Below, piece after piece: positions 48,450 through 64,000 of a DNA stretch of 64,000 bases; within the stretch, counting starts at the first letter, position 1, and every line of letters starts with the position of its first letter. Both the position numbers and the translations under genes were made by a program. The DNA is taken from the NCBI GenBank assembly GCA_016191995.1, contig JACPVA010000071.1:1-64000 (forward strand), written 5' to 3'. This DNA is from Burkholderiales bacterium. Lineage in GTDB: Bacteria > Pseudomonadota > Gammaproteobacteria > Burkholderiales > Burkholderiaceae_C. The notes beneath the pieces are model-generated. The model searched no databases, was not told the origin of the DNA, and was given only the letters and a program-made list of their open reading frames with translations.

Positions 48450-48840
48450 CTCGGTATCGCCAGCTCGACTTGGAAGTCGGGAATCCGGCAAGGCCGGCGG
48501 GACGCATTGTGCGGCAGCGCCATCCGATGAGCCGTCGCGTGGCGCGCCCGCCGCAGCGGCCATCGCGCGAACCGATCCGTTCGGCGCGCAGCGCTTGCGG
48601 CCCGGCGCCATGGCGCCCGCAGTGCGCGCAATCAGGTCAAACCCTATGTCACGATTTCTTACATGTGAACGCATCGGCTTCCACGGCCATCGGCCAAGTC
48701 CCTGTCAGCAATGAGGAGTCTGCAATCGGCACGTTCTTTGCGTGCGCCTTCGTCGCGTGGAGCCTGCGTTTCGGACCGCTGCCGGCTCGCGTCGTGGGCC
48801 TGCCACTTGCCCTGCATCGATCCACCTCATGAGGAACGAG

Positions 48841-50586
<1,746 letters not shown>

Positions 50587-50591
50587 ACCCT

Positions 50592-50622
50592 CTCCCCGCG
50601 GGCCCGCACGGCCCGCGGGGAG
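50592..50622 (+). terminator. GC-rich hairpin between paralog 1 and PEP-CTERM gene 1
   Basis: CTCCCCGCGGGC-CCGCACG-GCCCGCGGGGAG, perfect 12-bp stem. Confidence 0.6.
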
Positions 50623-50659
50623 GCCAGGCCCCCTTCTTTCGCATCATCGGAGAACTCGC

Positions 50660-51397
50660 ATGAGAAACCTCACCAAAGCCCTGGGCGGACTGGTTGCCGC
50701 GATCGCGCTGGCGCTGCCGGCGCAGGCCGCGACCGTCTCGTTGACCGACCTGCTCGGTGGCGACAGCATCATCGCAGGCGACAAGCTTTTCGACAGCTGG
50801 TCGGTTGCGTACTACGACAGCAGCGATCCTTTGCGCACATTCGATTCCGACAACATCGACATCACCTCGCTCGACGATGGCGGCGACAACCCGGGTCCGG
50901 GTTTGAGTTTCGGCGTGTCGAACGGCGAACTGACCATCACCGGGGATGGCACCTACGCCTACGTCGACCTGACCTTGAGTTTCCGCGTCTCGGTGCTGCC
51001 CGGCGCGGGCAAGCTGATCAAGGACAACTCGCTGTCGCTGAGTGCCGGCTTGGTCACGAACGCGGGCGACAACGGCGTCTACATCAACGAGGTCATCGGA
51101 ACCTCGGAGGGCGGCGACGATCTCGGCGAGAAGGAGATCGAGTTCAGCTACCTGGATGGGTCGCTGGGAGGCTCGGGGCTGATCCTGAATCCTTTTGACT
51201 CTGCCACGTTTGCACCCCAAAGTGAGGTCTGGGTGACGAAGAACATTCTCGTCTGGGCCACGGGCGAAGACGAGACAGCCCAGCTCGCAGGCTTCGATCA
51301 GCGTTTCTCGCAGCAGTCGGTCCCCGAGCCCGGATCGCTGGCGCTGGTCGCGCTCGCGCTTGCCGGCCTCGGCATGGCTGCGCGCCGGCGCGGCTGA
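50660..51397 (+). CDS. PEP-CTERM sorting domain protein 1
   Basis: Signal peptide MRNLTKALGGLVAAIALALPAQA; C-terminus SVPEPGSLALVALALAGLGMAARRRG. Confidence 0.9.
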   Translation: MRNLTKALGGLVAAIALALPAQAATVSLTDLLGGDSIIAGDKLFDSWSVAYYDSSDPLRTFDSDNIDITSLDDGGDNPGPGLSFGVSNGELTITGDGTYAYVDLTLSFRVSVLPGAGKLIKDNSLSLSAGLVTNAGDNGVYINEVIGTSEGGDDLGEKEIEFSYLDGSLGGSGLILNPFDSATFAPQSEVWVTKNILVWATGEDETAQLAGFDQRFSQQSVPEPGSLALVALALAGLGMAARRRG

Positions 51398-51804
51398 GGC
51401 GCTCCACTTGCGGCGCGCCCGGTCGGCGCGCCGAGTTCCCCGACGGCGGCCCGCGTGGCCGCCGTCGTGCTTCTCGTCGACGACCCGCGGTCAGGTGCAG
51501 GCGTCCCTGCGCCCTGCCGTTGCGCAGCATGGCCGCACGAGCCCTGGCCGCCCGCACCTGTCCGGGGGATGTCGGCGCGCTTTACACATGACAAGCTCAC
51601 CGACAAGGCCGCTTCAACAAGGCATTGATCGCACTGAGGTTATTGGTCGCGGCACGCAATGTGCTTTGCAGTCTGCGAGACCTCTCGCAAGCGGACGCAA
51701 TCGGTCTGCGGCTGCGACGCGGAAGCGGCCCGCCTGCGCGGCCGACATGCTCGATTCGAGATCGGTCTTCGGCCCTTCCGAGATTGAACCGACGGAGAGA
51801 CACG

Positions 51805-53457
51805 ATGAGACACATCACTTCCCGACTCGTCCTGGCAGCGGCCCTCGCCGCCTGCGCGAGTGGCGCGCAGGCTGACTACGCCGCCTTCAAGGCCGACGTC
51901 AACGCCGCGATCGACGCCGGGCTGGCGTATTCGCGCGCCAACAGCTACTTCACCGCGATCGCACCCGGGTCCTACGGTCCGGGTAACGGACTTGCGCTGC
52001 TGACGCTGCTGGAAAAGGAGACCATCCCGGCGGGCTACAACGGCCTCGACGCGGGTGACAAGGTGCTGGCACAGAACGCCGCGTGCATCCTCATCGACAG
52101 TCCCACCTTCGGCGATCGAGGCGGCTTCTACTCGTACTACGACGGCCAGGTCCTGATGGGCCTGTCGGTCTACCTGGACACTGGCGGGCCGGACGAGCCC
52201 GCGGCGTCGGCCGGATTCAACTGCGCCGGCCGTTCGGCCCGGCAGACGATCGACAAGGTCGTCGATCGCGCCCTTCTGGCTCAGTCGCCCGAAGCGCCCG
52301 CCGCCTTCGGTCGAGGTGGTTACTGGGGCTACTCGGGCTACGGATACGACTCGTCGACGACGCAGTTCACGATCGCCGGGCTGGCAGCTGCCAAGGGCTT
52401 CTATGCTTCGCAGGGTGAATCCATCGACAAGAACCGGTTGCCGCTGATCACGGCCGCCCTCGACAAGACCTCGCTGGCCTATTCGTTGAACGGGAAGGCC
52501 AATGCCGGCGGGCAGTTCGATACCTGCGGCGCAGGCTGCTTCGGGCACGGATACCAGTCGAGCTACGGCGCCGGAAGCAACAGCTCGCAGCAGACTGCTT
52601 CGGGGACCTGGAACCAGCTCGCCGGGACGGGCAAGAACGTCAACGACGGGTCGATCCAGGGCTATCTGCGCTGGCTGCAAAATGCCTACAGCCACACGAC
52701 GAATATCCGACCTGATTCCTGGCCCGAGGCCTATTTCTACTACCTCTGGTCCTCGTCCAAGGCCTACAACATCATCCAGGGCGCCGGGGTCCCGCTGGCG
52801 GGCGGGAATATTGGCCCGGACGCCATGGGCACGCTGCCGGCCGTCGCGGGTCGCCAGGTGAACCGCGACCCGCTAGTCGACACCCGGCCACCGGCTCGCG
52901 GCGCTGGGGGCGCCGGCTACTACGCCGGAACGCCGACCGGCTGGTATTACGACTACGCGCATCGGCTGATGTCGCTGCAGAACGCCGCGGGTCTGTTCCC
53001 GAACCCGAACGGCACGTGGTCGATCTCGGCGGATCACTCCTACGCCATCCTGGTCCTGCAGCGCTCGATCGGTGGTGCCTGTACCGACAACGATCAGGAC
53101 GGCGTGTGCGACAGCGTCGACAACTGCCCGGCCACGCCCAACCCCGGCCAGGAAGACGCGGACGGCGACGGCGTCGGCGACGCCTGCGACAACTGCCGGG
53201 ATGTGCCCAACGCGGACCAGGCCGACACCGATGGCGACGGTACCGGCGACGCCTGCGAGCAGGCCCCGATCCCGCGCTGCGACGTCGACAAGGACGGCGA
53301 TATCGACAAGATCGACCTGAGTGCGATCAGCCGCGCCAGGGGCAAGACCGTGCCGCCGCTGGATCCGGCCTACGACGCGGACGGAAGCGGGACGATCACG
53401 CCGAACGACGTGAAGACCTGCATCCCGCAGTGCACGCGTCCGAACTGCGCGAGCTAG
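51805..53457 (+). CDS. Secreted toroid/thrombospondin-3/dockerin-like protein, paralog 2
   Basis: [114 protein letters not shown]. Confidence 0.8.
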
Positions 53458-53466
53458 CGACGCATC

Positions 53467-53493
53467 CCCCGCGGGCCCGGTGGGCCCGCGGGG
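53467..53493 (+). terminator. GC-rich hairpin between paralog 2 and PEP-CTERM gene 2
   Basis: CCCCGCGGGCCC-GGT-GGGCCCGCGGGG, perfect 12-bp stem. Confidence 0.6.
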
Positions 53494-53532
53494 AAACAGG
53501 ATCCCCGCCTCTTGACCTGCAGGAGAACCCGA

Positions 53533-54264
53533 ATGAAGACCGTGACCAAAGCCCTGGGCTCACTGGTGGCCGCGATCGCGCTGGCGCTGCCGGCGCAGGC
53601 CGATCCCGTTTCGTTGACCGACCTGCTCGGCGGCGACAGCATCATCGCAGGCGACAAGCTGTTCGACAGCTGGTCGGTCGCCTTCTACGGCAGCAGCGAT
53701 CCTTTGCGCACATTCGATTCCGACAACATCGGCGTCACCGCACTCAACGATGGCGGCGACGACCCGGGACCGGGGCTCAGTTTCGGCGTGTCGAACGGCG
53801 AACTTGACGTCGTCGGGGATAACCTCTTCGCCTATCTCGACCTGACCTTGAGTTTCCGCGTCTCGGTCCTGCCAGGCGCGGGCAAGCTGATCAAGGACAA
53901 CTCGCTCACGCTGACCGAGGGCCAAATCCAGGCGATTGGCGACAACGGCTTCTACATCCGCGAGACCATCGGCACGACGGAGGGCGACGACGACCTGGGC
54001 GACAAGGAGGTCGAATTCAGTTGGCTCGACGCATCGCTCGGCGGGACAGGCTTGACACGCAATCTCACGGATTCGGCCGACTTCGCGCCCCAGAACCAGA
54101 TCTGGGTCACGAAGAACATCTACGTCTGGGCTACGAGCGACCAGGAACTGGCGAGCCTGCGTGGCTTCGAGCAGCGCTTCTCACAGGTCCCCGAGCCCGG
54201 ATCGCTGGCGCTGGTCGCACTCGCGCTCGCCGGCCTCGGCGCCGCGGCGCGCCGCCGGCACTGA
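53533..54264 (+). CDS. PEP-CTERM sorting domain protein 2, near-identical to protein 1
   Basis: MKTVTKALGSLVAAIALALPAQADPVSLTDLLGGDSIIAGDKLFDSWSVAFYGSSDPLRTFDSDNI...QVPEPGSLALVALALAGLGAAARRRH. Confidence 0.9.
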   Translation: MKTVTKALGSLVAAIALALPAQADPVSLTDLLGGDSIIAGDKLFDSWSVAFYGSSDPLRTFDSDNIGVTALNDGGDDPGPGLSFGVSNGELDVVGDNLFAYLDLTLSFRVSVLPGAGKLIKDNSLTLTEGQIQAIGDNGFYIRETIGTTEGDDDLGDKEVEFSWLDASLGGTGLTRNLTDSADFAPQNQIWVTKNIYVWATSDQELASLRGFEQRFSQVPEPGSLALVALALAGLGAAARRRH

Positions 54265-54633: not shown

Positions 54634-54987
54634 CGGCAACTCTCCTCGGCCCGTAGCAGGCTTGGCTCGGTGGCTCCATTGTCCCGCGCTGCAGCCCTGG
54701 GGCAAGTCGTGACGGCTTCAAGATTCGCAGCGGCACGACACCAGGCGCTGCAGCGCAGGCATGCAAGCGCCCGGCAGGCCTCGGCCGGATCTAGGCGCGC
54801 CACTCCGCCGGCATGTCTGGCCGTCGGCATGCACGATCGGCCAAGACAGGCGAACTTTCGTGGCTGGCTTGGCACAGCCCCCCGATTCGATGTTCCCTGA
54901 CTGCGGCCATTTCCTTATCATGACGGGCGCGAGGCTCGGCGAGCACCCGCGTTGAACATGCCACCTGGATTGACCGGAGGGAATCGA

Positions 54988-56670
54988 ATGCCCAGTTCAT
55001 CACGTCTCAGCCGCCGTGCGGCGTATGCGGCCGCGCTAGGTGTGGCTCTTGCCACTGGTGCGGGCACGGCGAGCGCGCTGACGCCGTTCCAGCAGGATGT
55101 CGCGACCGCGATCGACCGCGGGCTCGAGTGGCTTGCCGTAAACGGTGCCTTCAACAACCCGAGTTCTGCCGGCGACGCATCCGGGCTGCCGATGCTCGCA
55201 CTGCTCGAGAAGCGCCCCAGCGGCGATCCCAACGATCCTCCGCAGGGCTACATCGGCGCGAACGTGACGGACAAGGGGCGCCTGCAGGATGCCGCCCGCT
55301 ACATCCTGGACCGCGCCAACGAAACGAGCTTCTATGCCTACCGCGACGGCGCCTGGATGTTCGCATTGTCGGAGTATGGCCGCACCGGCGGGCCCGACAA
55401 GAGTACGCTGGCGCCGGGAAACGCGGACTACCAGACGATCAAGCAGGCGATGGATACCCTCGTCGATAGGGCACTGGCCAACCAGCGGTCGGCGGCCACG
55501 GGCTACGCCAACCCGGCGAATCAGGGTTACTGGTGTTATACGAATCCTGGCTGCGAGGACTCGTCGACGACCCAGTTCGCCGCTGCAGGGCTCGCGGCGG
55601 CCAAGACCTTCTACACCTCGGGGAAGAGTGCCGACCAGCCGTTCGCGGATCCGATCCGCGCGGCCCAGATCGACGCCGCGATGGCGATGACGAAGGCCGC
55701 CTACGAGCTCAATGCCGCCACGGGGTCCGACAACGCCGCCTGCAACGTGCTGACCGACACCGAACGGGGCCATGGCTACAACTCGTTCCCGACCTCCGGC
55801 TACAACCCGTCGCTGGCACAGACGGCTTCGGGCATCTACATCCAGCTCTTCGGCGGCGCCAACATCAACAGCCCGATGGTTCAGAGCTACCTGGAGTGGA
55901 TGCGCAATCGCTATCGTTGGCAGGATCTGGATAGTCTAGGCAACTACTGGTCCGGGCAGTCCTATTGGTATTACCTGTGGAGCTCGTTCAAGGGCATGGA
56001 ACTGCTCCGGAAGTCCGGGCTCCCGCCCGCTCCGGGCAATCTCAGCGCGGAGTCGCTCGGCAAGCTTGCGGCGGCGGATGCACCGGCCTGCATGGTGCGC
56101 CAGGAGAACAAGGACCCCGCGCTCGTCACACGTCCGGCCAGCTTCGGCGCAGGTGGCGCCGGGTTCTATGCCGGCTCGCCCGTCGGCCAGTATTTCGACT
56201 ATGCGCACCAGATCCTGACCCACCAGTGCTACGACGGCAGCCTGCCGATCGCCGGCACGGATGGCCGCTTCGCATGCAACAGCGCTCCTGGGCGCTGGAA
56301 TGACTACTCGGCGCAGTCCTACGCGCTGTTGGTCCTGCAACGATCGGTCGGCGGCGGATGCGTCGACACGGATCGCGATGGGGTCTGCGACGTCGACGAC
56401 AACTGCCCCGCGAAAGCCAATCCGGACCAGAAGGACAGCGACGGGGATGGCATCGGCGACGTCTGCGATCAGGTCAGTGTCGCGCGCTGCGACGTCGACA
56501 GGGACGGTGATGTCGACAACAACGACCTCAACCAGATCAGCCGTGCCCGTGGCCAACGCGCTCGGGGCTCCGACGACCCGCGCGATGGCGACGGCGACGG
56601 CAGGATCACCTACAACGACGTCACGGTCTGCAAGGGCCAGTGCACGCGGACCTATTGCGCGGTCCAGTAG
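54988..56670 (+). CDS. Secreted toroid/thrombospondin-3/dockerin-like protein, paralog 3
   Basis: [100 protein letters not shown]-terminus DVDRDGDVDNNDLNQISRARG..GDGRITYNDVTVCKGQCTRTYCAVQ. Confidence 0.8.
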   Translation: MPSSSRLSRRAAYAAALGVALATGAGTASALTPFQQDVATAIDRGLEWLAVNGAFNNPSSAGDASGLPMLALLEKRPSGDPNDPPQGYIGANVTDKGRLQDAARYILDRANETSFYAYRDGAWMFALSEYGRTGGPDKSTLAPGNADYQTIKQAMDTLVDRALANQRSAATGYANPANQGYWCYTNPGCEDSSTTQFAAAGLAAAKTFYTSGKSADQPFADPIRAAQIDAAMAMTKAAYELNAATGSDNAACNVLTDTERGHGYNSFPTSGYNPSLAQTASGIYIQLFGGANINSPMVQSYLEWMRNRYRWQDLDSLGNYWSGQSYWYYLWSSFKGMELLRKSGLPPAPGNLSAESLGKLAAADAPACMVRQENKDPALVTRPASFGAGGAGFYAGSPVGQYFDYAHQILTHQCYDGSLPIAGTDGRFACNSAPGRWNDYSAQSYALLVLQRSVGGGCVDTDRDGVCDVDDNCPAKANPDQKDSDGDGIGDVCDQVSVARCDVDRDGDVDNNDLNQISRARGQRARGSDDPRDGDGDGRITYNDVTVCKGQCTRTYCAVQ

Positions 56671-57213
56671 TACGCCTGACCCGCATCGGCTCGGCAGGCT
56701 CGGCGCAGTCCTGCCGGGCCCGCGCGGCGCTCACAAGGGCCCGTTGTCGGGACGCGGCCGGGTACTAGGTGCGCTGCGCGTGTTCAGCCGGCCTCGGCCT
56801 CCCGCCGACGACCCGCTGGCAATGGCGGTCGAGTGGCGCCGACATCGGTGCCAGACCGCTGCGGTCCCCGCCGAGGCCGACCGTGCCCCGACCCTTTCGC
56901 GTCATGCACGGTTCGCGCCGGCGCCGTAACCCGGTGCCCGCGCTCCCGCCCCTGCATGACGTATCGTGTACGGTTGTCGCGAGGGCTGAACTCGCGTCCA
57001 GGTCAATGCGTCCATCTGCGAACCTGCCTGCCGGTTTCGCCTGACGATCGCCCACCGCGGGTGGTCGAGGCCGCATCAGGGAAGCGGACGACATGAACGG
57101 TCTCCTGGCCAGTTTCGTGATGGATGCCCGTCGACGATTCATGCGATGCAGATACCGTACGCCGTGCAACGTACACCGTGCCCGATCGACAACTGCCCAC
57201 AGGAGCGGATGCA

Positions 57214-58452
57214 ATGACCTCGTTGACCGGCTCGCCGGCGCTCAAAGTCCAGGTGATGTGCGAAGGCATCCGCTATACGCCGGCGCTGGCCGCGGCGGCG
57301 GCGCACTCGATGCCGAACTACTACCCCTACCGCTTCAAGGAGGGCGAGCCGGACCCGACCGGGCGCGGCATCGCCACCATCCCCTACCTGATCAACCTCG
57401 GCGACGGCACCGAGATCCGCATCCTCGGCAACGGCGACTCGCCGTGGCATGTCGAGGGCAGCCGCGACGCCGGCTACCGTCTGGTCGACGACCGCGACGG
57501 CCGCAGCCTGCCGGTTGCGTTCGAGCCGCTGCGGCCCTGGCAGTCGGGCCAGACCCGCGATGGCATGCCCTACGCGCAGGCCGGGGTGTCGACGCACGGC
57601 GACATGCTGGTCGTCAACGTCGCCCCGGGCTGCGAGTATTTCCTGCACAAGCACGACGGCCGGTCGATGCGCTGCAGCTTCTGCGCCTACGGCGCGCCTG
57701 ACGAGCGCACCAAGCACCTGGGGCAGGTGACCGGGCAGGTCCAGATCCCGCAGGCCACGCTGGAGCGCATGGCCGAGGCGATGGACGCGGTGATCGAGCA
57801 GGCCGGGGTGCGACATATCTACCTCGTCGGCGGCTCGCTGACCGACTGGCGTGCCGAGGGCGAGCGCTTCCTGCAGCTGGCGCGCTTCGTCAGGCAGGCC
57901 AACCGGCGCCGCATCCCGGTGGCGCTAGGCTCGGGCGCGCTGCCCGACGACCAGCTGGCGCAGTTTCACGCCGAGGGACTGGTCGAGCATGTCTGCTTCA
58001 ACCTCGAGATGTGGTCCGAGCCTCTCTTCAGCCGCATCTGCCCCGGCAAGGCGCGTTATGTCGGTTACGAGCGCTGGATCGCCTCGCTCGAGACCGCGGT
58101 GCGCCTTTGGGGGCGCGGCAACGTCTACTCGGCGATGGTCGCCGGCATCGAGCTCGACCCCGAGCACGGGCTGGAGTGGCAGGACGCCGCGCGCATCGCG
58201 CTGCAAGGCGCCGAGGACCTGTGCCGGCGCGGCATCGTCCCGATCTATTCGCTGGTCTGGCCGTCGGGCGGGCGCCAGCGCCCCGACTATCACGAACGCA
58301 TCCGCGCCTATTTCGAGACCCTGACCGAAGGCTACGCTGAAATCCGCCGCCGCCACGATCTCGCGGTGGCCGACAGCTTCATGTGCCACCGCTGCGCCTA
58401 CATGCAGCTCGAATGCGACGTCGACCGCGTCGCCGAGGCGACGGCGGCATGA
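57214..58452 (+). CDS. Radical SAM protein with CX13CX2C cluster motif
   Basis: VVNVAPGCEYFLHKHDGRSMRCSFCAYG; HIYLVGGSLTDW; C-terminal FMCHRCAYMQLECD extra cysteines. Confidence 0.85.
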   Translation: MTSLTGSPALKVQVMCEGIRYTPALAAAAAHSMPNYYPYRFKEGEPDPTGRGIATIPYLINLGDGTEIRILGNGDSPWHVEGSRDAGYRLVDDRDGRSLPVAFEPLRPWQSGQTRDGMPYAQAGVSTHGDMLVVNVAPGCEYFLHKHDGRSMRCSFCAYGAPDERTKHLGQVTGQVQIPQATLERMAEAMDAVIEQAGVRHIYLVGGSLTDWRAEGERFLQLARFVRQANRRRIPVALGSGALPDDQLAQFHAEGLVEHVCFNLEMWSEPLFSRICPGKARYVGYERWIASLETAVRLWGRGNVYSAMVAGIELDPEHGLEWQDAARIALQGAEDLCRRGIVPIYSLVWPSGGRQRPDYHERIRAYFETLTEGYAEIRRRHDLAVADSFMCHRCAYMQLECDVDRVAEATAA

Positions 58453-58510
58453 ACCGACACCGGACCCGATTCCAGCGCGCGAGCCAGCCCGTGAGACGCG
58501 GGGTGCAGCC

Positions 58511-59521
58511 ATGAATGCGCCGGCCGCCCTGCCCGACCCGGGCGCGATCATGCGGCTGAGCACCGCGTTCTGGGACAGCCAGACGCTGCTGACCGCCGCC
58601 CGCCTGAGGCTCTTCGACACGCTGGCCGACGGCGCGCGCGGTGCGGACGAGGTGGCGGCGGCGCTCGGGCTCGATGCGCGCGCGACCGCGCTGCTGATGC
58701 GCGCGCTCGCCGGGCTCGGCCTGCTGCGGCCCGAGGGCGATCGCTTCGCCAACACGCCCGAGGCGGCGACCTTCCTCGTCAGCCGCAGCCCGGGCTACAT
58801 GGGCAACGTGATCCGCTACAGCGACCAGCTCTACGCCACCTGGGGCGAGCTGGAACAGGCGCTGCGCAGCGGCCGCCCGGCGCTGGCGGCGCAGACCTAT
58901 CTCGGCGACGATCCGGCGCGAACGCGCGCCTTCGTCGTCGCGATGCACGAGCGCGCGCAGGGTATCGCGCGCGCGCTGGTCGGCGTGCTCGACCTCGCGG
59001 GGCGGCGGTCGATGCTCGATGTCGGCGGCGGCCCCGGCACCTATTCGGTGCTGCTGACCGCGCGTTTTCCGGGGCTGCGCGCCGAGGTCGTCGAGCTGCC
59101 GGGTGTGGCCGCGGTGGCGCGCGAGCTCGTCGCCGAGGCCGGCGCCGCCGACCGCGTCGCGGTGCGCGACGGCGACTACCGCAGCGCGGACTTCGGCCAT
59201 GGCCACGACGTGGTGCTGATGTCGGGCATGTTCCACCGCGAGACGCCGGCGGCCTGCCGCGACCTGATCGCGCGCGCCGCGGCCTGCCTGGCGCCGGGCG
59301 GGCTGCTCGTCGTCAGCGACGTCTTCACCGACGAGGGCGGCGCCACGCCGGCGTTCGCGGCGCTGTTCGGGCTGAACATGATGCTGACCGCGCCCGACGG
59401 CGGGGTGCACGCCGACGCCGACGTGCGGCGCTGGATGGAGGCCGCCGGGCTGCGCGACATGCGCGTGCAGCCGCTGCCGCCGCCGATGCCGCATCGCGTC
59501 GTGACGGGGGTCAGGCGGTGA
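58511..59521 (+). CDS. SAM-dependent O-methyltransferase-like protein with winged-helix dimerisation domain
   Basis: LFDTLADGARGADEVAAALGLDARATALLMRALAGLGLLRPEGDRFANTPEA; RSMLDVGGGPGTYSVLLTARFPGLRAEVVELPGV. Confidence 0.88.
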   Translation: MNAPAALPDPGAIMRLSTAFWDSQTLLTAARLRLFDTLADGARGADEVAAALGLDARATALLMRALAGLGLLRPEGDRFANTPEAATFLVSRSPGYMGNVIRYSDQLYATWGELEQALRSGRPALAAQTYLGDDPARTRAFVVAMHERAQGIARALVGVLDLAGRRSMLDVGGGPGTYSVLLTARFPGLRAEVVELPGVAAVARELVAEAGAADRVAVRDGDYRSADFGHGHDVVLMSGMFHRETPAACRDLIARAAACLAPGGLLVVSDVFTDEGGATPAFAALFGLNMMLTAPDGGVHADADVRRWMEAAGLRDMRVQPLPPPMPHRVVTGVRR

Positions 59522-60309
59522 GGCGGCGCGTGGTCGCGGGTTGTCCGGCCGACGGCGCGGCCGCGTCGGCGCGGCGGCGGATCGGGGCCGGCCTCATCGC
59601 GGTAGCCGCCGCCTTGCCGGCCTGGGCGCAGGCGCCGGCTCCGGCCGCCGCGCAGGCTCCGGTGCCAGCCGCGGCGCAATCGGACGGCACCGCGCCGGCG
59701 CCGGAGCTGAAGCCGTTGGGCGGCGACCGCTACCAGATCGGCCGCATCGTCGTCGACAAGGCGGCGCGCCACTTCACCGTGCCCGGGCGCGTGCATGCCC
59801 TCGGCGAGCCGCTCGAATACCTCGCCACGGCACCGGGTGGCATGAAGGCCTACGAGGCGCTGTTCGAGCTCGACGCGCGCGGCACCGCGTTCAACCTCGC
59901 CTGCATCCTGATCGGGCTGGAGCGGCGGCCCGGAGCCACCCCATGGGAGGGCCGCGAGCCAGGCCGGCGCATCGACGGCATGCGCGTGCGGCTCACCCTG
60001 GCCTGGGGTCAGGGCGCGCTGCGCAAGGAGGTCCCAGCGGCGCGGGCGCTGCTCAACGACGACGCCAGCGTCGAGGCGGACAAGGTCGAGTGGGTCTATA
60101 TCGGCGCGCCGGCGTCCGATCTGCACGGCCGATTCATGGCCGAGGAGACCGGCACGCTGATCGGCTTCATCCACGACGCCAACAGCATCATCGAGTCCGC
60201 CACGCCGATCGGCATCGGCGCCTACGGCTCGGTGCGCGGGCACGCGATGCTGCCGCCCAAGGGATCGCCGGTCGAGCTGATCGTCGAGGCGTTGGGCAGC
60301 GGACGCTGA
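59518..60309 (+). CDS. YdjY-domain-like secreted protein
   Basis: Signal region then GRIVVDKAARHFTVPGRVHALGEPLEYLATAPGGMKAYEALFELDARGTAFNLACILIGLER; start overlaps the methyltransferase stop. Confidence 0.65.
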   Translation: MRRRVVAGCPADGAAASARRRIGAGLIAVAAALPAWAQAPAPAAAQAPVPAAAQSDGTAPAPELKPLGGDRYQIGRIVVDKAARHFTVPGRVHALGEPLEYLATAPGGMKAYEALFELDARGTAFNLACILIGLERRPGATPWEGREPGRRIDGMRVRLTLAWGQGALRKEVPAARALLNDDASVEADKVEWVYIGAPASDLHGRFMAEETGTLIGFIHDANSIIESATPIGIGAYGSVRGHAMLPPKGSPVELIVEALGSGR

Positions 60310-60322
60310 CGAGCGGGTGGTG

Positions 60323-61063
60323 ATGGCATGGCGCGCGCTCGCGCTGGTCCTGGCGGCCCTGCCGGCGCTGGCCGCCCTCGGTGCGCTGGCAGGCGACACC
60401 CAGCCCTCCGCCCAGCGCGTGACGATTGCCGCCACGGCGGGCCTGCTGGCCCCGTTGCTGTGGCCGGGCACCGGGCCGAGCGCCGCCCGCACCGGGGCGA
60501 CGGTGCTCCTGTGGTCGGGTGTCGCGGCCGGCGCCGCCGTGCTCGGCATGACGGCCCTAGGCGACCTGCGACGCGCAGGTGCCGGTATCCTGCCGACCGG
60601 CGCCATGCTGTGGCTGCTGCTGCTGGTCACCCATGCCGGGGCCGCTGCGATCGAGTTGCATGCGCGGCGGGCGGGCGTGCGAGCGGCGCAGGCGCGCGAA
60701 CTAGGCGGCGGCGTGGCGGCCCTGGTGCTGGCGCTGCTGGCAAGCCTGCCGCTGTGGGCAGGTCCCGCCGCCGAGGCGCTGTCCAGTCGCCTTCCCGGCC
60801 TCGCCGAGACTGTGGTCGGCGCCAGCCCGCTCACCCACCTGGCCCTGGCCAGCGGCAACGACCTGCTGCGCAACCAGTGGTTCTACCAGCACGCCAACCT
60901 GGCTGCGCTGCCCGTCACCTATCCACGGCCGGCCGCGGTCGCCTGGGCCTACGCCGCCGTGCTGCCGCCGCTCGTTTGGGCGACATGGGCGCTGCAGCGC
61001 AGGCTCCTGCGCGCGCCCGCTTCGACCTCCACCAACCCTGACACGGAGAACACCCGATGCTGA
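60323..61063 (+). CDS. Multi-TM membrane protein
   Basis: MAWRALALVLAALPALAALGALAG...GAMLWLLLLVTHAGAAAIEL...LGGGVAALVLALLASLPLW. Confidence 0.65.
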   Translation: MAWRALALVLAALPALAALGALAGDTQPSAQRVTIAATAGLLAPLLWPGTGPSAARTGATVLLWSGVAAGAAVLGMTALGDLRRAGAGILPTGAMLWLLLLVTHAGAAAIELHARRAGVRAAQARELGGGVAALVLALLASLPLWAGPAAEALSSRLPGLAETVVGASPLTHLALASGNDLLRNQWFYQHANLAALPVTYPRPAAVAWAYAAVLPPLVWATWALQRRLLRAPASTSTNPDTENTRC

Positions 61064-62145
61064 ATCGACGCCAACTGCTGATCCTGCCGGCCGGCCTGGC
61101 GCTAGGATCGCCCTGGGCCCGCGCCAACGAAAGGCTGGACCCGGCGCTGCGCGAGCGCGCGCGGCGCGGCGTGGACGCCGGCTTGCACTACCTGCGCGGC
61201 CAGCAGGGCGAGGACGGCTCGGTGCTGCGCTCCGTCGGCATCACTGCGCTGTCGCTGCGCGCGTTCCTCGAGAGCCACCGCGGCTACAACGAGGGCGACG
61301 GGCCCCTCATCACGCGCCAGGTCGAGTTCCTGCTGTCGAAGGCGCGCCCGGACGGGTCGATCTCGGAGTCGCTGCAGAACACCAGCTACAACACCGCGGT
61401 GGCGATGAACGCGCTGGCGGCGACCAAGAACCCCAAGTACAAGCCGGTGCTCGATGCCGCGCGCACCTTCCTGATCAAGCACCAGATCGACGAGGGCGAG
61501 GGCTACAAGCCCGACCACCGCTACTACGGCGGCATCGGCTACGGCGGCGACGAGCGGCCCGACATGTCCAACGTGTACCTCGCGATCGAGGGGCTGAAGG
61601 CGGCGGCCACCGACCCCCAGGACCCCGTCTGGCAGAGGGCACTCGTATTCGTCAGCCGCTCGCAGAACCGCAGCGAGAGCAACGACCAGGCCTGGGCCGG
61701 CAACGACGGCGGCTTCATCTACATGCCCGGCTGGAACCCGCCGGAGTTCGACAACGGCCTGGGCTCCTACGGCGGCATGACCGCCGCCGGCCTGCTGAGC
61801 CTGCTGTTCGCCGGTGCGGACAAGAACGACCCCCGCGTGCAGGCGGCGTACAAGTGGATGACGGCCAACTTCACGCTCGACGTCAACCCGGGCACGGCCA
61901 AGAGGCACGGCATCTTCTACTACTACAACGCACTGGCCAAGGTCTTGCACGCCTACGGCGAGGACAGCTTTGTCGACGGCCAGGGACAGCGGCGCAACTG
62001 GCGCAACGAGCTGGCGCAGAAGCTGCTGAGCCTGCAGGCGCCGGACGGCAGCTGGGCCAACCCGGACTCGCGCGCGTGGTGGGAGGACCGGCCGCAGCTC
62101 GTCACCGCGTGGTCGGTGATCGCACTGGAGCACGTATACCGGTGA
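61057..62145 (+). CDS. Prenyltransferase/squalene-cyclase-like toroid protein with Tat-like signal
   Basis: MLNRRQLLILPAGLALGSPWARA; GVDAGLHYLRGQQGEDGSVL..GITALSLRAFLESH; YNTAVAMNALAATKNPKY; MTAAGLLSLLFAG; LLSLQAPDGSWANPDSRAWWEDRPQLVTAWSVIALEHV. Confidence 0.88.
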   Translation: MLNRRQLLILPAGLALGSPWARANERLDPALRERARRGVDAGLHYLRGQQGEDGSVLRSVGITALSLRAFLESHRGYNEGDGPLITRQVEFLLSKARPDGSISESLQNTSYNTAVAMNALAATKNPKYKPVLDAARTFLIKHQIDEGEGYKPDHRYYGGIGYGGDERPDMSNVYLAIEGLKAAATDPQDPVWQRALVFVSRSQNRSESNDQAWAGNDGGFIYMPGWNPPEFDNGLGSYGGMTAAGLLSLLFAGADKNDPRVQAAYKWMTANFTLDVNPGTAKRHGIFYYYNALAKVLHAYGEDSFVDGQGQRRNWRNELAQKLLSLQAPDGSWANPDSRAWWEDRPQLVTAWSVIALEHVYR

Positions 62146-63773
62146 CCGCGACCCGGCCGCGCCGGCGCGCCGCAGGCGCCCGAGGCGCCGGCCCGGCGCG
62201 CCCGATCGTGGCCTGGCTGCTGGCGGCGGCCGCTGTGCTGGCGCCAGCGGCGGCGCAGGCCGCTTCGGCCGCGGCAACGCTGGACGCCGAGCCAGCCTGG
62301 CGGGGCTGGTCGCGCCCCGGCCGAACCACCGAGGTCGACCTGCGCATCGCCGGCGGCAGTGCCGCCCGCGCCACGTTCGACGTCGTCGCCGGCGCGCAGT
62401 CGCTGCATGGCACGGTCGACCTCGTTCCCGGCCAGACGCTGCGGGTGCGGCTGCCGCTGCCGGCGGCGCGGCATATCGTGGCTGAACTGCAAGTCATGGG
62501 CGGCGCCGCGCTGCGGCGCGAGTTGACGCTGTCGTGGTCGGAATCACCGCTGCTCGCGGTCGCGCTGGCAGGCTCCGCCGGCGAAGCGGGCGGCAGCGGC
62601 GCCGCGGGCGAGGCGGGCAGCGACGGCAGCGCCGCCCTGGCCGCCGGGCCGGCGTTGCCGAGGTTCCATGCGATCGCGGTCGGTGCAGCCGACCTGCCAC
62701 AACATGCCCCGGCATTCGCCAGCGTCGACGCGCTGCTCGTCGATGCGACGACGCTGGCCGCGTTGCAGCCGGCGCAGCTCGACGCGCTGCTCGGCCACGC
62801 TGCCGGCTGCGGCCGCATCGGCATCGTCGGCGCGGGCGAGGAATTGCAGCGGATGCTGCGCGATGCGGCGGGCTGCGGCGGCGCGGCGCTGGTCTTCGGC
62901 GCGACGGCCACGCAGGCCGTCGCCGCACTCGATGCAGCACTCGCGGCGCGGTTGCCGGCGGCGCTGCCGGCGACGACGCTGGACGCGCTCGCGCCGGCCG
63001 ACCCGGGGCGCTGGCAACAGGCGGCCGCCGCGCTGGCGGTGGCGGCCGCGGTCTTGGCGCTGGCCGCGGTCTTCGCACCCGCGCTACCCGTTTTGTTGAC
63101 GGTGGCCGCCGCCAGCGCCGGCGCCTTGCTGGGGCTGCCGCGCGCGCTGCCGCCGCTGCCCCAGCTCGTCGTCTGGGGCGAGGCCGATGCCGGGGCCGGG
63201 GTCGCGCGCTACCAGGCCTTGCAGCGCGTCGCCGGCACTGCGCGCGGCACGCTGCAGGTGCCGCTGCCGCGCCAGCTCGCGCCATCGGTGCGCGGCTGCG
63301 ACGCCGGCATGCCGCTGCGGCTGACGCTCGGCGCGGCACGCGCGGGGACCGCAGCGGGCGCGGCGACACCCCTGGGCGCCGGAACGGGCGCGGTGGCGGT
63401 GGCGGCGGCCTTCGACACCAGGCTGCTGCAGCGAACGGCGCTGTGCTACGCGGGCCGCTTCCCGCTGGCGCGTGCGTTGGCGGTCGAGCCCGGCAGCGAC
63501 GGCGCCGCGCGGCTGCGCAATACCGGCGCGCGCGAGCTGCCCGCCGGTCGAGTCGTCGCTGCCGGGCAGGTCCACGAGATGCCGACGCTGGCGCCCGGCT
63601 CGGCGGCGGCGCTCGCACCGGGGCGTGCACCGCGCGACGCCGTCGAGCGGCTGGCGCTGGCACGAACCCCTGCCGGCGGGGCGGCGGCGCTGTGGCCGTT
63701 GGAACTCGGCGGCGTCGAGGACCTGCCCGTCGACGCCAGCGGCTGGCTGCTCGTGCAGGCGTCCGTGCGATGA
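62142..63773 (+). CDS. Large membrane-anchored protein with DUF4350/BatA-like features
   Basis: GTG start overlapping upstream stop; N-terminal signal; central VDALLVDATTLAALQPAQLDALLGHAAGCGRIGIVGAG; TM AAALAVAAAVLALAAVFAPALPVLLTVAAASAGALLGL. Confidence 0.6.
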   Translation: MTATRPRRRAAGARGAGPARPIVAWLLAAAAVLAPAAAQAASAAATLDAEPAWRGWSRPGRTTEVDLRIAGGSAARATFDVVAGAQSLHGTVDLVPGQTLRVRLPLPAARHIVAELQVMGGAALRRELTLSWSESPLLAVALAGSAGEAGGSGAAGEAGSDGSAALAAGPALPRFHAIAVGAADLPQHAPAFASVDALLVDATTLAALQPAQLDALLGHAAGCGRIGIVGAGEELQRMLRDAAGCGGAALVFGATATQAVAALDAALAARLPAALPATTLDALAPADPGRWQQAAAALAVAAAVLALAAVFAPALPVLLTVAAASAGALLGLPRALPPLPQLVVWGEADAGAGVARYQALQRVAGTARGTLQVPLPRQLAPSVRGCDAGMPLRLTLGAARAGTAAGAATPLGAGTGAVAVAAAFDTRLLQRTALCYAGRFPLARALAVEPGSDGAARLRNTGARELPAGRVVAAGQVHEMPTLAPGSAAALAPGRAPRDAVERLALARTPAGGAAALWPLELGGVEDLPVDASGWLLVQASVR

Positions 63774-64000
63774 GGCCGGCCGAACCTGTCGCCGAGGCAG
63801 CAGCGGGCACGGCGCAGATCGCCACGCGGGGCCGCAGGTCGCTCGGCCGCAACGGGCTGCGCCTGGCGCTGGGCACCGGGATGATCACCGCGCTGCCAGT
63901 CGCGCTGTGGTGGCTGGGTGGAACGCGGCTGGCACTGGCGCAAGGGGCCGATACCGCGCGCGTCTCGGCCGTGGCGCTGCAACTGCTGTGGCTGCTGCGC
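63770..64000 (+). CDS. Start of next operon gene, cut by the window end
   Basis: ATGA overlap with the previous stop; MRPAEPVAEAAAGTAQIATRGRRSLGRNGLRLALGTGMITALPVALWWLGG... Confidence 0.5.
   Translation, partial: MRPAEPVAEAAAGTAQIATRGRRSLGRNGLRLALGTGMITALPVALWWLGGTRLALAQGADTARVSAVALQLLWLLR

Follow-up and report, generated by a model that had tools for sequence, protein, structure and literature searches.

A radical SAM-methyltransferase pair, a MoxR/toroid operon and the ebo cluster form a conserved gene block in Burkholderiales

The window analyzed here, a 64,000-nucleotide stretch that makes up the first 64 kb of the 123,596-bp contig JACPVA010000071.1 of a Burkholderiales bacterium (assembly GCA_016191995.1; 4.55 Mb, 199 contigs), ends within a same-strand operon that runs from a radical S-adenosylmethionine (SAM) gene, here rSAM, past the window end. 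To which system does this operon belong? The conserved block that begins with the window-end genes numbers about 18 genes and consists of rSAM and a methyltransferase (MT) gene, a MoxR/toroid operon, and the ebo cluster. The association of these three parts is well supported. An open reading frame check found all genes open at the following positions:

57214-58452, plus strand: radical SAM protein (NF045502 variant_rSAM), 412 amino acids (aa); cysteines invariant in 17 orthologs, AlphaFold2 (AF2) model nearest lipoyl synthase
58511-59521, plus strand: SAM-dependent O-methyltransferase (MT), 336 aa; PF00891 and PF08100
59518-60309, plus strand: YdjY-domain protein, probably exported, 263 aa; NF040466
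60323-61063 (alternative start 60317), plus strand: membrane protein with about four hydrophobic segments, 246 aa; orthologs in synteny
61057-62145, plus strand: exported single-domain (alpha/alpha)6 toroid, squalene-cyclase-like, tor4, 362 aa; PF13243, 34 bits
62142-63773, plus strand: membrane-anchored protein with two hydrophobic segments, 543 aa (bat in gene-order strings); orthologs in synteny
63770-64000 (start in window), plus strand: small membrane protein, 184 aa, ending at contig position 64324

Genes overlap at four places (MT/YdjY at 59518-59521, membrane/toroid at 61057-61063, toroid/membrane at 62142-62145, and membrane/next gene at 63770-63773) and continue on the same strand beyond the window, which bears out the proposal of an earlier, sequence-only reading that they form one operon extending past its end. 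The gene list of that reading was right in the main, except that the label BatA/DUF4350-like for the protein at 62142-63773 has no Pfam or NCBIfam support. rSAM and MT are separated by 58 bp in the window, and several other genomes (e.g., at loci L031, L040, L041, and L044) show a 4-bp overlap of the two; the rSAM start at 57214 is consistent with its orthologs, and a scan of 56600-57260 detected no promoter or terminator. Beyond the 184-aa protein, the contig encodes a 383-aa membrane protein, MoxR, a DUF58 protein, a BatA-like protein, and a von Willebrand factor A (vWA) protein, to contig position 71970; the MoxR/DUF58/vWA genes anticipated further 3' are thus present, together with a BatA-like gene. 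A complete ebo cluster in the order EboF-A-B-D-E-C lies at contig positions 73250-79959, 9-16 kb past the window end, and a minus-strand VTT/DedA gene stands between the vWA gene and EboF.

MoxR matches AAA_3 at 198 bits and also exceeds the cut-off of PF20030 bpMoxR (36.7 bits), and the DUF58 and vWA proteins match their families at 113.9 bits and 58.5 bits (VWA_2), respectively. DxSxS motifs of the metal ion-dependent adhesion site (MIDAS) type are located at 112 in the DUF58 protein and at 45 and 413 in the large vWA protein, so that a MoxR AAA+ protein occurs here with DUF58 and a MIDAS-bearing vWA partner. The BatA-like protein was named from its N-terminal sequence only, with no Pfam match above cut-off. 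The gene order MoxR, DUF58, BatA-like, vWA is the usual one of such operons. Among the ebo products, EboF belongs to the Type I phosphodiesterase family and EboB to TatD; the names of EboA (no Pfam match), EboD, EboE, and EboC rest on resemblance in sequence, on position, and on orthology, EboD being clearly distinct from AroB. The six genes of the cluster, for TatD-like, UbiA-like, sugar phosphate cyclase, xylose-isomerase-like, and phosphodiesterase-family proteins and EboA, are found in order in this genome and in others.

An alignment search with rSAM returned 17 loci among 84,980 species genomes, titled Rubrivivax, Ideonella sp. A 288, and other Burkholderiales or Betaproteobacteria, in addition to metagenome-assembled genomes (MAGs) labelled Gammaproteobacteria (L043) and Proteobacteria (L046). 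Most of these genomes are MAGs with many contigs, in which absence is weak evidence, and genes in the fetched loci were called with a simple codon-score caller, so that start positions may be off. The order rSAM-MT-YdjY-mem-tor4-bat-mem-383aa-MoxR-DUF58 (mem, membrane protein) is kept in nine of the 17 loci (L031, L033, L034, L035, L036, L038, L040, L041, and L045); L044 keeps the rSAM-to-DUF58 order without tor4, and the other loci mostly end at contig edges. Ten further genomes, from Rubrivivax MAGs, other Burkholderiales, and the sequenced strain Ideonella sp. A 288, share the gene order, and the possibility raised beforehand that it is unique to this genome does not hold. The ebo cluster comes next on the same contig in all nine genomes that reach far enough (the genome of the window, G015, and those of L031, L033, L035, L036, L038, L041, and L044), which, together with the order conserved in ten other genomes, is more than chance. 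In four loci (L080, L081, L082, and L084), ebo directly follows the vWA gene in the same direction, with a gap of 126-398 bp, and in five (L078, L079, L083, L087, and L088) a three-gene minus-strand ATP-binding cassette (ABC) transporter, composed of a binding protein, a fused permease, and an ATPase, lies between vWA and EboF, the position held by the VTT/DedA gene in the genome of the window. This vWA-transporter-ebo arrangement includes two genomes with a broken rSAM contig (L087 and L088).

A WelO5-family 2-oxoglutarate (2OG)-Fe(II) oxygenase or similar protein was also seen near ebo in five loci (L080:3688-4521, L086:4944-5813, L089:7161-8000, L078:8555-9355, and L046:19335-20156); that of L080, the only locus scanned, matches PF22814 at 141.8 bits. 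The iron motif of 2OG oxygenases is HHD in the hydroxylase type and HxG in the halogenase type. A halogenase step was rejected, since the motif of the oxygenase near ebo reads HHD, not HxG, and no match was found in the genome of the window.

A true EboD was detected in 15 of 15 rSAM genomes tested by way of fetched loci. Within the genus (81 genomes), rSAM is present in 10 and EboD in 11, and all 10 rSAM genomes are among the EboD-positive ones (hypergeometric 5.9e-12, not corrected for phylogeny). No rSAM was found in a sample of 398 other genomes of the order, nor was tor4 found in a phylum-wide sample of 398 other Pseudomonadota genomes. The latter gene was present in five of the five rSAM/ebo genomes checked, and of the 37 genomes of this genus in the relatives set the same four are positive for tor4 and for EboD. 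Distance correlations of rSAM/MT with the ebo proteins reach 0.82-0.94.

Two distant genomes carry the parts on separate contigs. One contig of the L046 genome has rSAM-MT, then a type I isopentenyl diphosphate (IPP) isomerase (L046:12312-12848; NF002995 at 155 bits, cut-off 127), then ebo, and another (L120) has a relative of the thrombospondin type 3 (TSP3) toroids listed below, a PEP-CTERM protein, and the operon mem-tor4-bat-mem-357aa-MoxR-DUF58-vWA. One contig of the L043 genome has rSAM-MT-YdjY, a TonB receptor, a type II IPP isomerase (L043:9797-10867; 364 bits, cut-off 281), and ebo; only tor4-bat-mem, beside an unrelated gene, was seen on the other (L117). This separation indicates that rSAM-MT belongs with ebo, and the presence of toroid genes in the same genomes, though unlinked, indicates that the parts go together. 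The two unrelated IPP isomerases (types I and II) between rSAM-MT and ebo argue for an isoprenoid product. The sequence-only view of rSAM and MT as plain partners of the toroid has to be given up, as in L046 and L043 the pair travels with ebo and an IPP isomerase, with no toroid genes in that run. Most likely, then, the pair belongs to an ebo-type small-molecule pathway, with the toroid/MoxR operon as a second module used with it.

The rSAM protein matches NF045502 at 151.8 bits (cut-off 125) and PF04055 at 30.7 bits (cut-off 29.5). Its core is unusual, C140-X13-C154-X2-C157 in place of the CX3CX2C spacing, and a second, C-terminal triad reads C391-X2-C394-X6-C401; both triads are invariant in 17 sequences. 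Sequence searches of the PDB gave no credible match, and Pfam and NCBIfam scans gave no family match to a SPASM or B12-binding domain. The MT gene adjoins rSAM in 16 of 16 loci reaching that far, and its family pair (PF00891/PF08100) is of the small-molecule O-methyltransferase type. A small dicluster ferredoxin gene at or near eboC in six loci (L079:16356-16604, L080:4546-4842, L083:13857-14147, L086:5801-6124, L088:14719-15021, and L089:9926-10222) encodes a possible candidate electron donor for rSAM. An 89-aa DUF3303-type protein is encoded on the minus strand, divergent from rSAM, in L036, L038, L040, L041, L043, and L044, in some cases with a VTT/DedA protein; it was not seen at the equivalent place in the window. 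Isolate ACE_PRO48 (L031 and L037) has two copies of the operon start rSAM-MT-YdjY-mem-tor4 on different contigs.

For tor4, an alpha/alpha toroid fold related to squalene-hopene cyclases (SHC) is indicated by its similarity to SQHop_cyclase_C (PF13243), by an AF2 model of 12 helices (pLDDT 73.6, moderate confidence), and by Foldseek, whose best PDB matches were the monodomain SHC structures 8pak/8paj, with MstE ranked lower. These matches have template modelling (TM) scores of 0.53-0.61, and the same list contains AprG and GH76 sugar enzymes with the same barrel. Sequence searches of the PDB with tor4 gave only weak lanosterol synthase/SHC matches covering the first third. The monodomain class II terpene cyclases (MstE, PDB 6sbb-6sbg; the myxobacterial SHC 8paj/8pak) resemble tor4 in their single (alpha/alpha)6 toroid and similar length; in contrast, tor4 has a signal peptide and is missing the DxDD acid motif, which is absent from 12 of 12 orthologs. 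The Tat label given earlier to this protein is uncertain: xRRxxL stands at the N-terminus of most orthologs, but L033 has KRHFLA and the 54-59% relatives carry plain signal peptides. Of the other proteins encoded in the operon, the YdjY-like one matches NF040466 at 80.5 bits (cut-off 50) and has none of the extra cysteines found in E. coli YdjY, and the 246-aa membrane protein at 60323-61063 has no Pfam or NCBIfam match.

Starting from the observed gene content, order, co-occurrence, and retention of the modules, we rate as evenly balanced the proposal that rSAM and MT tailor the ebo product and that MoxR/vWA, with the YdjY-like, toroid, and membrane proteins, is the envelope-side partner of that product. 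The product class, the order of steps, and the role of MoxR are our inference, and could be as follows. The ebo enzymes (EboD as sugar-phosphate cyclase, EboC as UbiA prenyltransferase, and others) would make a prenylated small molecule, in line with the isoprenoid-cyclitol proposed as ebo product (PMC5133447). This would probably be a prenylated cyclitol or aromatic compound, and an EboC-type enzyme has been found to prenylate aromatics (PMC9235831). The involvement of an isoprenoid would fit the two unrelated IPP isomerases at the locus. rSAM and the O-methyltransferase may tailor the product, as suggested by their linkage, including at loci without the toroid operon. The product potentially acts on the periplasmic side, given the adjacent exported and membrane proteins and the requirement of ebo for moving the scytonemin monomer to the periplasm (PMC6282210). 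By analogy with MoxR-vWA maturation machines (PMC3893208, PMC7159879), MoxR (AAA+), DUF58, and the vWA/BatA-like proteins could be a chaperone-like inner-membrane ATPase machine for maturation or loading, which, with the YdjY-like protein, tor4, and the membrane proteins, might capture or load the ebo product or mature proteins dependent on it. Position and co-occurrence alone make tor4 and the TSP3/dockerin toroids candidate partners or clients, the larger upstream toroids probably being secreted clients of the MoxR machine. A more specific and tentative version, to which we give a modest chance, is a new envelope system in which the tailored ebo isoprenoid would be a cofactor or ligand loaded by MoxR/vWA onto exported toroids, as in methanol or CO dehydrogenase maturation; if true, this would be the first known envelope-side partner of the ebo pathway.

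Several observations weigh against the proposed cooperation between a tailored ebo product and the MoxR/toroid operon. tor4 has no DxDD, the acid motif of class II cyclases; its best-conserved loops are the least confident regions of the model, in which the conserved loops 146-168 and 203-237 are unresolved; and it is the least coupled part, with distance correlations to the rest of 0.21-0.67. It is missing from the L044 operon, the same genome encoding a 54% relative at another place. In G025, ebo and tor4 occur but neither rSAM nor YdjY was detected, and G059 carries only ebo. The rSAM model (pLDDT 83.7) reaches its nearest structures, lipoyl synthases, at TM 0.39-0.41 only.

Alternatively, though this appears fairly unlikely, the block might be an island in which a metabolite cluster (ebo-rSAM-MT) and an envelope operon (MoxR/toroid) were co-inherited or co-transferred as independent systems that do not cooperate. 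The modules are separable, as seen in L046 and L043, which have rSAM-MT-ebo without the MoxR operon there, and in G059, and the evolution of tor4 is less coupled to that of the other parts. However, the toroid/MoxR operon is placed between rSAM-MT and ebo, not beside them, the 4-bp MT/YdjY overlap occurs here and in several other genomes, and both modules are found in the same genome even on different contigs, though tor4 was absent from the 398 sampled Pseudomonadota. It is rather doubtful that tor4 is a periplasmic terpene-cyclising enzyme that acts, like MstE, on the prenyl chain of an exported ebo product, with MoxR/vWA as accessory. Its nearest folds (8pak/8paj), the match to MstE, which has a prenylated aromatic substrate, and the apparently isoprenoid nature of the neighbouring pathway would agree with such a role, but none of the 12 orthologs has DxDD and the TM scores equally fit AprG and GH76 sugar enzymes. 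Cyclases of the MstE/SHC type are not known to be exported.

Modification of the toroid or another exported protein by rSAM and MT, the role implied by the modification pair of the sequence-only reading and by the translational coupling of the genes, is very unlikely, given that the pair in L046 sits with an IPP isomerase and ebo while the toroid operon is elsewhere, that MT is of the small-molecule type, and that no SPASM match and no precursor-peptide gene were recognized (short peptide genes were not searched systematically). Least credible of all is an anti-phage or threshold MoxR-vWA conflict system: such pairs are used in conflict systems (PMC7159879) and MoxR exceeds the bpMoxR cut-off, but its AAA_3 score is far higher, no VMAP, STAND, FtsH, or beta-propeller partner was recognized in the block, and the block shows conserved rather than hypervariable gene content. 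A defence role of MoxR was also rejected from PADLOC, which gave a weak mad8 match on MoxR only.

Both halves of the block are of known types, namely ebo clusters and MoxR-vWA operons, and their combination appears undescribed. MoxR-DUF58-vWA operons (mxaRSACKL for methanol dehydrogenase, RL3499 of Rhizobium leguminosarum, and the Bat operons) likewise group MoxR, DUF58, BatA-like, and vWA genes together; in contrast, the present operon adds the YdjY-like protein, the toroid, and further membrane proteins, is placed between rSAM-MT and ebo, and no methanol dehydrogenase was seen in the block. The ebo clusters of eustigmatophytes and bacteria, including the EDB cluster of Pseudomonas fluorescens, share the six genes EboF-A-B-D-E-C, whereas here rSAM-MT and a ten-gene MoxR/toroid operon form part of the block. 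The E. coli ydjXYZ-ynjABCD operon also has a YdjY-domain protein (NF040466), with VTT/DedA proteins near and, in some of the genomes studied here, an ABC transporter. It was rejected as the same system, since BLASTP and hhalign gave no significant match: the DedA, YdjY, and transporter proteins lack significant pairwise similarity, the YdjY cysteine motif is missing here, and the two YdjY proteins are joined by the NCBIfam domain model only. In the open-access literature searched, no published link of ebo to radical SAM, MoxR, or toroid genes was found, and no description joining MoxR, DUF58, squalene, and radical SAM. With the set being conserved, its candidacy as an undescribed system, put forward from the sequence, is sustained.

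The ebo genes are found across many bacterial phyla and some algal plastids, and their putative product is a small molecule, exported and isoprenoid-linked. The block supplies a defined set of ebo partners, namely a radical SAM enzyme, an O-methyltransferase, an IPP isomerase, a MoxR/vWA machine, and an exported toroid, which occurs with ebo in a narrow bacterial group that includes a named strain, not a MAG (Ideonella sp. A 288). The question of the ebo product and its destination becomes testable through these partners.

Upstream of rSAM, the window contains further toroid-like genes:

48742-50586, plus strand: secreted toroid-like protein tor1, TSP3 repeats and dockerin-like tail; PF02412, family profile matches tor4
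50660-51397, plus strand: PEP-CTERM protein, paired with tor1; PF07589, 26.4 bits
51625-53457, plus strand: secreted toroid-like protein tor2, TSP3 repeats and dockerin-like tail; PF02412, weak PF00404
53512-54264, plus strand: second PEP-CTERM-like protein, paired with tor2; close sequence similarity to 50660-51397
54952-56670, plus strand: secreted toroid-like protein tor3, TSP3-like stretch and dockerin-like tail; other genomes have relatives upstream of rSAM

No toroid Pfam match was obtained for tor1-tor3. With hhalign, their profile could be aligned to tor4 across 345 columns (96%, E 2.4e-9), which supports the label of toroid paralogs. In L031, L032, L038, L040, and L043, TSP3-toroid genes are found upstream of rSAM; they are reversed in L042 and L044, and adjoin the separate MoxR operon in L120; the suggested link between the operon and the secreted paralogs is thereby upheld. 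A small surface protein, PEP-CTERM or similar, regularly accompanies the toroids with TSP3/dockerin tails (window 48742-54264; L038:8297, L040:8800, and L120:2248), a pairing that suggests exosortase-linked surface display. A second group of toroid relatives, at 54-59% to tor4, consists mostly of lone genes (L117, L118:7794-8882, L119:6338-7438, L027, and L028:12579-13673), two of which (L027 and L119) adjoin TonB-dependent receptors.

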